From Herbinix luporum (GTDB lineage Bacteria; Bacillota; Clostridia; Lachnospirales; Lachnospiraceae): a DNA stretch of 64,000 nucleotides. The translations under genes were made by a program, and so were the position numbers. A model generated the notes under the pieces. The model did no database searches. It saw only the letters and a program-made list of their open reading frames with translations, and was not told where the DNA came from. The DNA lies in NCBI RefSeq assembly GCF_900070325.1, contig NZ_LN879430.1, positions 484,501 to 548,500 of the forward strand, given 5' to 3'. Within the stretch, counting starts at the first letter, position 1. The number at the start of each line of letters is the position of its first letter. Of the stretch, positions 7,809 to 13,015 are shown piece by piece.

Positions 7809-8435
7809 TTATAAATTTATAATTCTTGAGCAATTTTTAAAAAGGTTTTCATCATGGCTTACCATGATAATTGTTTTTCCTTCACTATGAAATTTCTCCA
7901 GTAGCTTTATTATAATCAATGCATTCTTTCTATCTAAGCTACCAGTTGGCTCATCAGCTAAAATTATATCTGATTCTTGCAAAATCAATCTTGCAACTGA
8001 TACCCTTTGTTGTTCGCCACCTGATAGTTGATAAATTTTTTTGTTGATTACATCTTTTAGACCGACCTTCTCTAAAGCTTGCTGTATAAGAATCATTTTT
8101 TCTTTTTTAGAAGATTTTTTTAATACTATTTTTAAATTATCATATACTGATAAATCATCTATTAATGCAAAGTTTTGAAATAAATATCCGATCCTATTTC
8201 TCAATAATTTCTGTACTTTTTTAGTGTCATTACTACTAATACATTTTTCTTCAAAAAATATATTACCTTCGCAATCTTCTAATAAACCAATAATATTTAG
8301 TAAAGTAGATTTTCCTTTTCCACTTTCACCTTTAATACCAATAAATTCACCCTTTTCAACTTCTAAATTGAAATTACTTAAAACAACTTGTTTTCCATAT
8401 TTTTTACTAATATTATTAAGTCTTATTAAACTCAT
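7809..8435 (-). CDS. ABC transporter ATP-binding protein, bacteriocin-export type
   Basis: A 208-residue ABC ATPase of the MacB/LolD-like class. It has Walker A GESGKGKST (residues 36-44), a Q-loop in LFQNFAL, signature LSGGEQQRV, Walker B IILADEPTG and the switch His in VSHD. The start ATG lies 8 bases after AGGAG and 18 bases from the end of the upstream permease gene, so the two form an operon. By position next to a DUF1430-type membrane protein and a secreted small peptide it fits the transporter of lactococcin-972-type loci, thought to give export and/or immunity. That role is inferred from context; the ATPase itself is generic. Confidence 0.88.
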   Translation of the reverse strand: MSLIRLNNISKKYGKQVVLSNFNLEVEKGEFIGIKGESGKGKSTLLNIIGLLEDCEGNIFFEEKCISSNDTKKVQKLLRNRIGYLFQNFALIDDLSVYDNLKIVLKKSSKKEKMILIQQALEKVGLKDVINKKIYQLSGGEQQRVSVARLILQESDIILADEPTGSLDRKNALIIIKLLEKFHSEGKTIIMVSHDENLFKNCSRIINL

Positions 8436-8453
8436 TACTTATCAACTCCTATA

Positions 8454-10337
8454 CTACTCACCTTTGAGTGCTAAAATTACTTTATGTTTCATGTAACTAG
8501 AGATCATATAATGATAAATAAAATATTCTAAAATTACTAATACTAAAAATATAATGTTTACATATAAGGCAGCAGTAATAGTAATAAGAAAATTTAAAAC
8601 TAAGAAATTGGTTAAGGTTTTTATAGGAAGTTTTCCTATTAATTTATGTACTGAAAATTCTTTCTTTTTTAACTCCAAATAGATAATACATATAGAAATT
8701 ATGCACAAAATATATGAAACAAAGTTTATTATAAATTTAAAAAGGGATTCACAAATATCTAATTGCTTATTGGCTTTAAAAATATTATAGCTCATACTCA
8801 TTGGCTCAATTGCAAAACTTCCTTTGTCTATATTAAGTTTTTCTAATTCACTTTGTAATATTTTTGCGCCATTTTCATTATAAAGAACTTCGCCGTTATT
8901 TAAATATAATATTTTTTGTGTTTCATATAAACAAAATACCGAATCATATACATAGCATCCAGCAACTAAGATATCATCTACTACTTGTCCATCTTTTATA
9001 TAAATTATTTGATCAATTTCTTCAGCTCCATAATTATTCATAATATCGGAAATGCTATTTTTAAAATGTTCGGGGACTAGATAGACATTAGAATTTCCAC
9101 TTATGTCTTCTGGTTTAAGGATTTTTCCATGTTCATTACATATTTTTACGAAATTCAACATATTAATAGACATTTCTGTATATATGCAATTATCAACATC
9201 TCGTAATTTTTTATCTTTTTTAAATTTCTTTAATTTATTAATATTAAGTAGATTATCAGGTGAAGCATAATTATAAATATCATCATCGTTTATTTGACTA
9301 ATCACCTTCTCTACTTTATCCCATACAGTTTGTTCTGGTGTTGAGGACGTCCTTATACTATAGAAATTATAATTTAACAATTTACTAACGGACTCATTGG
9401 TAGCATTATAGTTAGCGATATTTTGAATAGTATTGCTTATTGAAGCTACAAATAAAAAGGTTACCATAATTTTGAAAATTAACAATGAACCAAATAATAT
9501 ACGATTATTCTTTTTGTTTTTTATTGCACTTACTCTATCTATATGCATAATTAGAAAGGTTCCGACTATTGTAGATAATATAAATATAGCAAGTAAAAAC
9601 AAATCTACCATAATAACTATCTTAACAAACTCATCTATTTTACTTAAATCAGAATATATTACATATATTCCAAAAGGAATAAGTAAAATTAAGCTCCAAC
9701 TATATAATTGTAGCATCATGGTCACTAATAATTTAAATGATATTTTTCTATTATTCCAACCACATAATTTTAATATGCCTATTTCTTTTAATCGTGAGAC
9801 ATAATAAGTGGATATACACAAAATTAACAAAATTGTAAGTGAAGAAAAGAATGCCAAATTTAATGATGAAAAAAGCATACCCAATTCCAAACGTACTGGC
9901 TTATCTACATCAATTGTGACAGTATAACCAAGTTTTTCAATTAAAGAATTTACTTTGTTAATTTTTTCGTATTGTTCTTCTTGAATTGTAAAATATTTAA
10001 TTTCTCTTTGGTCATTTTGACTTAAAACCGAGTATATTACCTTTTCATTAGGAAATACACTGTTTTTTTTCCCTAACTTCATATTGATATCAGGATTAAT
10101 CAAAACAACATCTATTTCTACATGACCAAAACTAATTTCTTTATATTCCCTTAACTGAATTGTGACATCTGCTTTTTTTGCAATATTATCCAATTTTTGA
10201 TTTGAGATATATTTGTCTAATGAAAAATCATATATTGGAGAATTGCTATCGTAATGCATTTTATCAACAACCAAAAGAAAAAAGAATATAGAAAAAAGTG
10301 ATACTAATAAACCAATTCCTTTAAAAATTTTTTTCAT
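8454..10337 (-). CDS. Bacteriocin-associated integral membrane protein (DUF1430-like)
   Basis: A 627-residue membrane protein with an N-terminal TM segment (about residues 5-24), a large extracytoplasmic loop, several TM segments at roughly 155-310, another big loop, and TM segments again from ~540 to 615. The stretch EIGILKLCGWNNRKIS resembles the cytoplasmic coupling segment of FtsX/MacB-like permeases and of the bacteriocin-associated immunity membrane family that carries DUF1430. It should pair with the downstream ATPase. The start ATG follows AAGAGGT. The protein is rich in Ile, Lys and Asn and the DNA is more AT-rich than flanking ppdK and galK, suggesting transfer. Substrate is inferred from the adjacent peptide gene. 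Confidence 0.78.
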   Translation of the reverse strand: MKKIFKGIGLLVSLFSIFFFLLVVDKMHYDSNSPIYDFSLDKYISNQKLDNIAKKADVTIQLREYKEISFGHVEIDVVLINPDINMKLGKKNSVFPNEKVIYSVLSQNDQREIKYFTIQEEQYEKINKVNSLIEKLGYTVTIDVDKPVRLELGMLFSSLNLAFFSSLTILLILCISTYYVSRLKEIGILKLCGWNNRKISFKLLVTMMLQLYSWSLILLIPFGIYVIYSDLSKIDEFVKIVIMVDLFLLAIFILSTIVGTFLIMHIDRVSAIKNKKNNRILFGSLLIFKIMVTFLFVASISNTIQNIANYNATNESVSKLLNYNFYSIRTSSTPEQTVWDKVEKVISQINDDDIYNYASPDNLLNINKLKKFKKDKKLRDVDNCIYTEMSINMLNFVKICNEHGKILKPEDISGNSNVYLVPEHFKNSISDIMNNYGAEEIDQIIYIKDGQVVDDILVAGCYVYDSVFCLYETQKILYLNNGEVLYNENGAKILQSELEKLNIDKGSFAIEPMSMSYNIFKANKQLDICESLFKFIINFVSYILCIISICIIYLELKKKEFSVHKLIGKLPIKTLTNFLVLNFLITITAALYVNIIFLVLVILEYFIYHYMISSYMKHKVILALKGE

Positions 10338-11052: not shown

Positions 11053-12240
11053 ATGAGGAATGATTTAATAGAAATATTTGAGAAAATATTCGGAACAGAG
11101 GGAGAGTATAGAGCCTACTTTGCCCCGGGTAGGGTAAATTTAATAGGAGAACATATTGATTACAATGGGGGACATGTATTTCCCTGTGCATTAACCATAG
11201 GAACCTACGGGGTGGCAAGAAAGAGAAAGGATAAAATTCTTCGTTTTTATTCCATGAACTTTAAAGAGAAGGGAATAATTGAATCCTCTATTGATAATTT
11301 AGTATATAAAAAGGAAGATGATTGGACAAATTATCCTAAGGGGGTAATCTGGGCTTTACAAAAGAAGGGTTATAAGATAGATAAGGGTATGGATATTTTG
11401 ATATACGGAAATATCCCCAATGCCTCAGGGCTTTCCTCTTCGGCTTCATTGGAAGTGCTTACGGGATTTATACTGATGAAATTATTTAATTTGGATATTA
11501 GCTTTACAGATTTGGCATTATACAGCCAATATGCCGAGAATAAATTTGTCGGTGTAAATTGTGGTATAATGGATCAGTTTGCTATTGCTATGGGAAAGAA
11601 GGACCATGGGATTTTTCTTAACACATCTAATCTTTCCTATGAATATGCCCCCCTAATATTAGCTGATGCAAAAATTGTAATCATGAATACCAATAAAAGA
11701 CGTGGTCTTGGTGATTCAAAATATAACCAAAGAAGAAGGGAATGTGAGCAGGCACTTTCCGATCTTCAGAAGGTGGTACCGGTTAAGGAGCTTGGGGACT
11801 TAACAGAAGAAGAATTTGAAGATTATAAATCAGCCATAAAAAATCCAATTCATGTAAAACGTGCAAAACATGCTGTATATGAAAATCAAAGAACAATTAA
11901 GGCAGTAAAGGCACTTAAAAATAAAGACATTGCTTTATTTGGACAACTTATGAATGACTCACACTTATCCTTGCAGCAGGATTACGAAGTTACCGGCATA
12001 GAGTTAGATACTATAGTGGAAGCTGCTTTAAGGCAGGAAGGGGTAATCGGTGCTCGTATGACCGGAGCAGGCTTTGGTGGATGTGGGGTTAGTATTGTTA
12101 AGGAAGCTGCAATCGAAAACTTTATTAAAAATGTAGGTAAGGAATATAAAGAAAAAATCGGCTATGATGCCTCCTTTTATGTGGTTGAAACCGGCAATGG
12201 TCCGGAAGTGCTAGTTGCGGATATGGTAATTTACGGTTGA
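11053..12240 (+). CDS. galK: Galactokinase
   Basis: Phosphorylates alpha-D-galactose with ATP to galactose 1-phosphate, the first Leloir step after mutarotation. GHMP-kinase hallmarks are all visible: the galactose signature GRVNLIGEHIDYNGG (residues 26-40), the phosphate-binding loop GLSSSASLEV, the catalytic Asp in NCGIMDQF, and the C-terminal GARMTGAGFGGCGVS. At 395 residues it has family length. It has its own promoter and an AAGGAG ribosome site. galE and galT are not in the window; galM is 40 kb away. Confidence 0.96.
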   Translation: MRNDLIEIFEKIFGTEGEYRAYFAPGRVNLIGEHIDYNGGHVFPCALTIGTYGVARKRKDKILRFYSMNFKEKGIIESSIDNLVYKKEDDWTNYPKGVIWALQKKGYKIDKGMDILIYGNIPNASGLSSSASLEVLTGFILMKLFNLDISFTDLALYSQYAENKFVGVNCGIMDQFAIAMGKKDHGIFLNTSNLSYEYAPLILADAKIVIMNTNKRRGLGDSKYNQRRRECEQALSDLQKVVPVKELGDLTEEEFEDYKSAIKNPIHVKRAKHAVYENQRTIKAVKALKNKDIALFGQLMNDSHLSLQQDYEVTGIELDTIVEAALRQEGVIGARMTGAGFGGCGVSIVKEAAIENFIKNVGKEYKEKIGYDASFYVVETGNGPEVLVADMVIYG

Positions 12241-12367
12241 CCCTTGTATGATTTTTGATTATAATGGATAAATCAGTAAAAGAATTTTGTAGATTTTAGT
12301 ATTTGTAGATTTAAGTAAGGGTTAATAGTACCTATCCCAGTTTGAAATTATGTTAGGAGGGGAAAAG

Positions 12368-12658
12368 TTGAAAGCAGGAAAATGTAGAAAAATAATTAAA
12401 TTAATTACCGTAACCACTAGCTTAGTAACTTTTATCAGTGCCGTTTTTAACTTTATACCAAGATCATATTTAAAATATAAATATGAAATTAATGCCGACA
12501 GGATTAAAGATGGTGCAGATGGGCCAACATCTGTCTATATAAGTGCAAAACCAAATTCGAATTTTATTCCCTTTATATGTGCTATCTTATCATTACTAGG
12601 GATTATTTATTTGACTTCTTCAAAGAGTAAATACAAGCAAAACAAAGTGAAAATTTAA
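12368..12658 (+). CDS. Small two-TM protein with GADGPTS motif (copy 1)
   Basis: A 96-residue protein starting at TTG 12368. The AGGAGGGG that precedes it lies inside the longer open frame from 12350, so the TTG is the better start. It has an N-terminal basic segment, a first TM helix (about residues 12-32), a short outside loop with KYKYEI and DGADGPTSVYIS, a second TM helix (about 64-82) and a basic tail. The GADGPTS motif is best known from the beta subunit of sodium-pumping decarboxylases (OadB), where it reads GGADGPT, but nothing else of that ~380-residue protein is present. It is followed 21 bases later by a paralogue. Function unknown. Confidence 0.7.
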   Translation: MKAGKCRKIIKLITVTTSLVTFISAVFNFIPRSYLKYKYEINADRIKDGADGPTSVYISAKPNSNFIPFICAILSLLGIIYLTSSKSKYKQNKVKI

Positions 12659-12679
12659 TTTTATCGGAGGAAATTAATA

Positions 12680-12976
12680 GTGTTTAAGACTGAAAAATCT
12701 AGACTAGTTATTTTAATACTTACTATAATAACATTACTTATAACAGTTATTGGTATTATATTTGAATACCTTTTTCCTAAGTTTATAGAATATAAATACC
12801 AAATAAAAACTGAGAATCCTGCTTCAATAGGAATTATAGGTGGTGCCGATGGACCTACATCTATCTTTATAAGTGGAACTAAGTCCGGGAATGTGCTTAC
12901 CATAATATGCGGATTAGTATCAGCTGCAGGTATTATCTATTTGCTTTTTACCAAGAAAAAAAGAATACAAAAATAG
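12680..12976 (+). CDS. Small two-TM protein with GADGPTS motif (copy 2)
   Basis: A 98-residue paralogue of the preceding gene, starting at GTG 12680 after CGGAGG. The architecture is the same: basic start, TM helix (about 10-32), the loop EYKYQIKTEN, then IGIIGGADGPTSIFISG, a second TM helix (about 72-90) and a Lys/Arg-rich end (TKKKRIQK). The motif here is closer to the OadB form than in copy 1, which has lost the first Gly. The pair ends at a terminator and may be a two-gene operon, or be read on from galK, since no terminator separates them. Function unknown; a membrane or ion-linked role is only a guess. Confidence 0.7.
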   Translation: MFKTEKSRLVILILTIITLLITVIGIIFEYLFPKFIEYKYQIKTENPASIGIIGGADGPTSIFISGTKSGNVLTIICGLVSAAGIIYLLFTKKKRIQK

Positions 12977-12989
12977 AAGTAGTTATATA

Positions 12990-13015
12990 AGCAGTCCTTA
13001 TGGGCTGCTTTTTAT
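12990..13015 (+). terminator. Terminator after the GADGPTS pair
   Basis: AGCAGTCC and GGGCTGCT form an 8-bp stem (one G-U pair) with a TTAT loop, followed by TTTTATAAT. Confidence 0.75.

Follow-up and report, generated by a model that had tools for sequence, protein, structure and literature searches.

The window, the whole 64,000-nucleotide stretch of DNA analysed here, covers positions 484501-548500 of a single-contig genome of 2.6 Mb. It contains two tandem genes encoding small proteins that are 39-40% identical to each other, with an intergenic gap of 21 bases (Table 1). Both proteins have a basic start followed by a hydrophobic helix on the N-terminal side, and the loop between their two helices bears the motif GADGPTSVYIS in the first protein and GADGPTSIFIS in the second. 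The limb preceding this motif reads SIGIIGG in the second protein and RIKDG in the first. Frames and translations confirmed the original observation of two tandem paralogues of about 96 and 98 residues with this layout at these coordinates. The signature of the sodium pump subunit OadB, which had been attributed to both, is present in both as GADGPT, while GGADGPT occurs in the second only, the first having DGADGPT. TTG12368 is the likely start of the first gene, since AGGAGGGG precedes this codon and the alternative ATG (12350) is located upstream of AGGAGGGG. The pair is flanked by a galactokinase-like gene upstream and a MATE-like gene downstream, both named from a reading of the sequence rather than from a family search.

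Table 1. Features of the mini-protein gene pair in the window and the third paralogue of the same genome.
Feature	Position	Strand	Basis and remarks
Sigma-70-like promoter TTGACC-17-TATAAT	12237..12265	+	Consensus scan, 11/12 matches; prediction only; upstream of the pair
Ribosome-binding site AGGAGGGG, first gene	12355..12362	+	Read from sequence
First mini-protein, 96 aa, TTG start: helix - KYKYEI - DGADGPTSVYIS - helix - basic tail	12368..12658	+	ORF and translation
Motif of first protein, IKDGADGPTSVYIS	12503..12544	+	Hydrophobic first limb lost
Ribosome-binding site GGAGG, second gene	12666..12670	+	Read from sequence
Second mini-protein, 98 aa, GTG start: helix - EYKYQI - SIGIIGGADGPTSIFIS - helix - basic tail	12680..12976	+	ORF and translation
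Motif of second protein, SIGIIGGADGPTSIFIS	12824..12874	+	Counterpart of OadB hairpin H1 tip; aligns to 6iva around Asp203
Intrinsic terminator closing the pair	12989..13010	+	9-pair stem, then T-run
Third paralogue (L004), 93 aa	L004:1417-1695 (G000:C1:79277-79558)		Same genome; between methyltransferase-like and uncharacterised genes

Both window frames are genuine genes and evolve under purifying selection. The dN/dS ratio, calculated by the Nei-Gojobori method, is about 0.56 between the two window genes (0.504/0.906), 0.37 between the second and the third copy of the genome, and 0.26-0.46 among closer relatives. It is thus below 1 in every comparison, which indicates purifying selection on the mini-proteins. 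The 2.6 Mb genome contains the exact DNA pattern of the motif four times, in the window pair, in the third mini-protein and in one of the two full OadB genes (the other has GAADGPT), and the reversed control of this pattern gave no match in the same genome, which rules out a chance motif. A frame-shifted or split OadB was also ruled out, as the paralogue elsewhere in the genome is similar in length and layout and no OadB remnant lies beside the pair.

The motif is shared with OadB/GcdB/MmdB, the beta subunit of Na+-translocating decarboxylases (PF03977, TIGR01109), in which about 18 residues around Asp203 are nearly identical to it. The OadB structures 6iva and 6iww were the sole solved structures to match, at this very stretch. 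In OadB, the helical hairpin H1 carries Asp203 at its tip and H2 carries Ser382 at its own; the D203A mutation abolishes Na+ binding, for which Ser382 is also required (PMC7274780). The window proteins possess the H1 tip G[GA]ADGPT with the Na+-binding Asp, the first keeping GADGPT without the preceding limb. In contrast, H2 (GxAGxSAxPM) with Ser382 and the ten or so membrane helices of OadB are absent from these two-helix proteins, and in the window genome the H2 pattern is found only in the two full OadB genes. OadA, OadG and biotin carrier genes do not adjoin the pair; one full OadB sits with carrier and carboxylase genes elsewhere in the genome. Against TIGR01109 the first and second proteins score 15.4 and 34.3 bits for a cut-off of 190.6, and against Pfam OAD_beta 12.0 and 30.6 bits for a cut-off of 31.6, the latter match covering only 57 residues. 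This Pfam cut-off is not diagnostic of OadB, since some non-OadB relatives (L152, L233) exceed it. As no specific family model fits and the rest of the pump is absent, the window proteins are, on sequence grounds, not OadB, and they are not a pump. Annotation by similarity can nevertheless only call them sodium pump beta subunits, which masks a separate phenomenon.

The helices flanking the motif were compared with the OadB helices that border H1 and with 300 further hydrophobic segments. They were no closer to those of OadB than other hydrophobic segments were, with the exception of the upstream helix of L152. Homology over the whole T4-H1-T5 segment is therefore not supported, save upstream in L152, and common descent is supported for the motif of about 18 residues only. 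The idea that these proteins are the relic of an OadB segment is thus not supported beyond the motif, the window proteins' helices being not demonstrably related to those of OadB.

Stand-alone carriers of about 100 residues, as had been anticipated, do exist in Clostridia. Close relatives of about 98 residues occur in several families other than that of the window genome (L152, L154, L155 and L156; L153 is shorter), and relatives of 77-80 residues in genomes of its own family. Matches were thus not limited to full-length OadB, and the dN/dS values given above are not near one. An alignment with L004 and L152-L156 showed that the succession of helix, short polar stretch, GADGPT, helix and basic tail is conserved over the full length in several genera. 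Among 378 sampled genomes of the wider phylum, no such relative was detected at the threshold used. L152 and L155, which belong to different families, have only the gene of about 313 bases in common (80% identity, dS 0.42) within unrelated flanks. That they share just the gene, at so low a dS, suggests horizontal transfer of the gene alone, and hence that the family has moved between families of Clostridia. Gene neighbours vary from locus to locus. In three genera, a stretch that spans 14 kb or more, is 99.8% identical and is conjugation-like in appearance (L246 at G102:C1:572000-587000, L247, L248) encodes an 80-aa carrier alongside an FtsX-type ABC transporter and a two-component system. A 77-aa carrier lies beside a MobA/VirD2-like relaxase gene on a contig of 4360 bases (L241, G102:C4), which is probably a mobilisable plasmid.

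A family of mini-proteins, as first suggested, does exist, its sodium link being putative, but it is too narrow a frame, as the motif is spread over many unrelated proteins. The peptide of about 18 residues, with the consensus [SA]xxIIGGADGPT[AS][IV][FY][LVI][AS]GK, was found in at least 56 distinct non-OadB proteins, window pair included, with at least 15 architectures; these carriers were collected by the motif itself, so that motif-free homologues fall outside the sample. Hosts confirmed by Pfam are rhodanese, cyclophilin-like, M56, HAAS, PEMT/ICMT and DUF6449 proteins. Rhodanese and cyclophilin-like carriers consist of an N-terminal helix, the motif and the domain, HAAS carriers of HAAS, helix, motif and helix, and BlaR1/M56 carriers have the motif right after the last helix. 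Two M56/BlaR1 proteins (L158, L183) contain two tandem copies between the last membrane helix and the ectodomain; those of L158 differ at only 4 of 48 bases, indicating a recent duplication. Multi-helix proteins also carry the motif, as does a lipoprotein (L141: lipobox, motif, helix), and micro-proteins of 47-54 residues (L112, L191, L072) are reduced to motif, helix and basic tail. About six carriers have no membrane helix and seem cytosolic (L108, L170, L171, L227, L230, L229).

Some of the latter belong to a set of soluble basic proteins, about 215-240 aa long, that lack a membrane helix and carry the motif close to their N-terminus (L227, L228, L230, L231, L108, L170, L171), and some of these sit at prophage edges. 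In a record labelled as phage, a label that is unverified for a sequence resembling a bacterial contig (MT839839.1, L006:2646-3299), the motif and an extra helix precede what reads, from the sequence only, as a signal peptidase II/LspA-like protein. A phage origin of the motif was rejected, as phage records and viral contigs yielded few carriers, some of them near prophage ends.

Neither the module nor the mini-proteins are described by any family in Pfam, NCBIfam, PADLOC or PHROGs, which agrees with the earlier statement that they form no nameable system. The absence of a PADLOC match also sets aside a defence system. In the open literature, GADGPT and IIGGADG were found in none of the papers listed and text searches on these proteins had no result either; an earlier mention in subscription literature is possible. 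The motif thus looks like an undescribed portable building block: the tip of a transporter's ion-binding hairpin seems to lead an independent existence, as a module shared by mobile mini-proteins, enzymes and sensors.

The breadth of this distribution bears on the possibility that the mini-proteins act as partial OadB subunits, slotting into or competing for the OadB core and so regulating assembly of the oxaloacetate/Na+ decarboxylase. The match of L152 to OAD_beta (41.8 bits over 76 residues) would fit such a role, as would the full OadB held by all five genomes outside the window's family that have the gene of about 98 residues and by the window genome itself, a co-occurrence to be read with the frequency of OadB known for the window's family only. 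There, OadB is present anyway in 161 of 180 genomes, too common to count. Moreover, the mini-protein genes are not beside OAD genes at the loci examined, and most carriers (rhodanese, M56, cytosolic) could not work in this way, making such a role improbable.

The motif has 55 distinct DNA versions in the collection. Among them, third codon positions at four-fold sites show 1.8-1.95 bits of entropy out of a possible 2, the first and second codon positions being fixed by the motif search itself. Third codon positions are thus near random, which indicates an old conservation at the protein level and rules out recent copying of one DNA element. In 180 genomes of the window's family, all 30 loci inspected for the H2 hairpin pattern were OadB, whereas the strict H1 pattern was found at 11 places outside OadB; as the H1 pattern was designed to avoid the commonest OadB continuation, presence and absence can be compared here but proportions cannot. 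Among rhodanese carriers, all found via the motif, conservation of the motif equals that of the rhodanese core, whereas the helix and the linker have diverged.

These controls weigh on the view that the motif has no function and persists by chance, either as ancient copies of part of OadB or as a selfish coding element. The many unrelated places in which it occurs and the tandem duplication in L158 speak in favour of this view. Nevertheless, dN/dS is well below 1, the peptide is unchanged where third positions are saturated, its constancy in the rhodanese carriers (a sample drawn through the motif) equals that of the enzyme core, and the ribosome-binding sites and terminator of the window pair are intact. 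We therefore consider this view among the less likely, with little chance of being correct.

The position of the motif relative to the membrane was deduced from charge and hydrophobicity alone. Most of the 56 collected carriers have a helix that either ends 5-21 residues ahead of the motif or begins 1-12 residues behind it, and in nearly all of them the side of this helix away from the motif is net positive. The motif is thus probably located just outside the membrane, beside the helix, in the majority of carriers, a location also supported by the lipoprotein L141 and by the carriers with an M56 ectodomain. The AlphaFold2 model of the second window protein comprises a helix (2-40), a weak beta hairpin (50-53/61-64) and a second helix (72-97), with a pLDDT of only 56-61 at the motif; this beta hairpin differs from the helical hairpin of OadB. 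The model of a rhodanese carrier was uninformative at the motif, and a fold search with the mini-protein model gave no match below an E-value of 2.4.

Such an outward location is compatible with the main rival to our preferred interpretation, a putative Na+ site retained from OadB. The motif could form a hairpin re-entering from the outside, with the tip Asp binding Na+ (or H+); the carriers would then be small Na+-responsive proteins and the M56/HAAS sensors would read external sodium. The Asp is present in all 56 collected carriers, although it is partly built into the search pattern, and it is the same residue whose replacement in D203A abolishes Na+ binding at the H1 tip of OadB (PMC7274780). 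Positive charges place the motif of the mini-proteins on the outside, flanked by a helix running in-to-out and one running out-to-in. However, binding in OadB also needs Ser382 on H2 (PMC7274780), so that without H2 a replacement second ligand would be required. The isolated motif is moreover short and in many cases preceded by a polar linker, the first window protein has a polar first limb, and some carriers have no membrane helix. Retention of the OadB chemistry is accordingly judged rather unlikely.

We lean, with confidence somewhat short of even, towards a promiscuous peptide module of Clostridia, near-identical to the tip of the OadB hairpin, acting as a self-contained interaction or ion-sensing element, mostly at the outer face, in dozens of unrelated proteins, with the window pair among its minimal carriers. 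An autonomous interaction element is the simplest reading of its many contexts, its tandem repeats and its near letter-for-letter constancy amid drifting surroundings. For the window genes themselves we propose, more tentatively, that they encode accessory membrane mini-proteins holding a portable interaction module outside the membrane. Each would have two helices with both ends inside and display the short module just outside the membrane, where it would fold alone as a small hairpin around the ADGP turn. By inference, the module would serve as a docking or self-association element, through which various surface and sensor proteins would be brought together or recruited to a shared partner; the two window proteins would be differentiated carriers of this module. 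Some observations do not fit easily. The six or so helix-less, cytosolic-looking carriers are unexplained by a purely surface role, and the loss of half of the hairpin in the first window protein and the varying gene neighbours also count against a docking module. Should the module bind Na+ or a common partner on its own, it would illustrate how a membrane hairpin functions away from its transporter, and it would offer a way into the many surface proteins of Clostridia that have yet to be studied.

The presence of mini-protein genes on mobile DNA (the 4.36 kb relaxase contig and the 99.8% identical stretch shared by three genera), the sensor type of several hosts (M56, HAAS) and the location of the motif outside the membrane might also be explained by a decoy or immunity function, in which the H1 peptide exposed on mobile mini-proteins and surface proteins would capture or sense a pump inhibitor such as a bacteriocin. 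Small two-helix bacteriocin immunity proteins are indeed similar in size, number of helices and occurrence as mobile accessory genes, but the mini-proteins have neither a consistent bacteriocin neighbour nor a match to an immunity family. In addition, H1 is buried in OadB, cytosolic carriers exist, PADLOC gave no match, and we know of no inhibitor that attacks the OadB pump from outside. Such a function is also among the less likely readings, and we regard it as very doubtful.

Promiscuous short protein modules form the comparable known category, in which we place the GADGPT module. SHOCT-like domains, for instance, are short units on the ends of many unrelated bacterial proteins and are thought to act by oligomerisation; they differ in sequence, and the GADGPT module lies mostly outside the membrane and is common to a transporter's ion-binding hairpin. 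LPXTG-type sorting tails (PF00746) resemble the carriers in having a short motif followed by a helix and a basic tail. One relative of 77 residues (L159) passes the Pfam cut-off of PF00746 weakly, whereas the second window protein reaches 12.8 bits for a cut-off of 20 and neither window protein contains an LPXTG-like pentapeptide. Besides, LPXTG tails are C-terminal, while many carriers have the motif at the N-terminal side or before a soluble domain, so that it cannot be a sorting signal.

Just beyond the galactokinase-like gene, the minus strand of the window (7809-10337) encodes an ABC ATPase and a permease-like membrane protein of 627 aa. The latter has no Pfam match at an E-value of 0.001, and the two genes together resemble bacteriocin-associated exporters.
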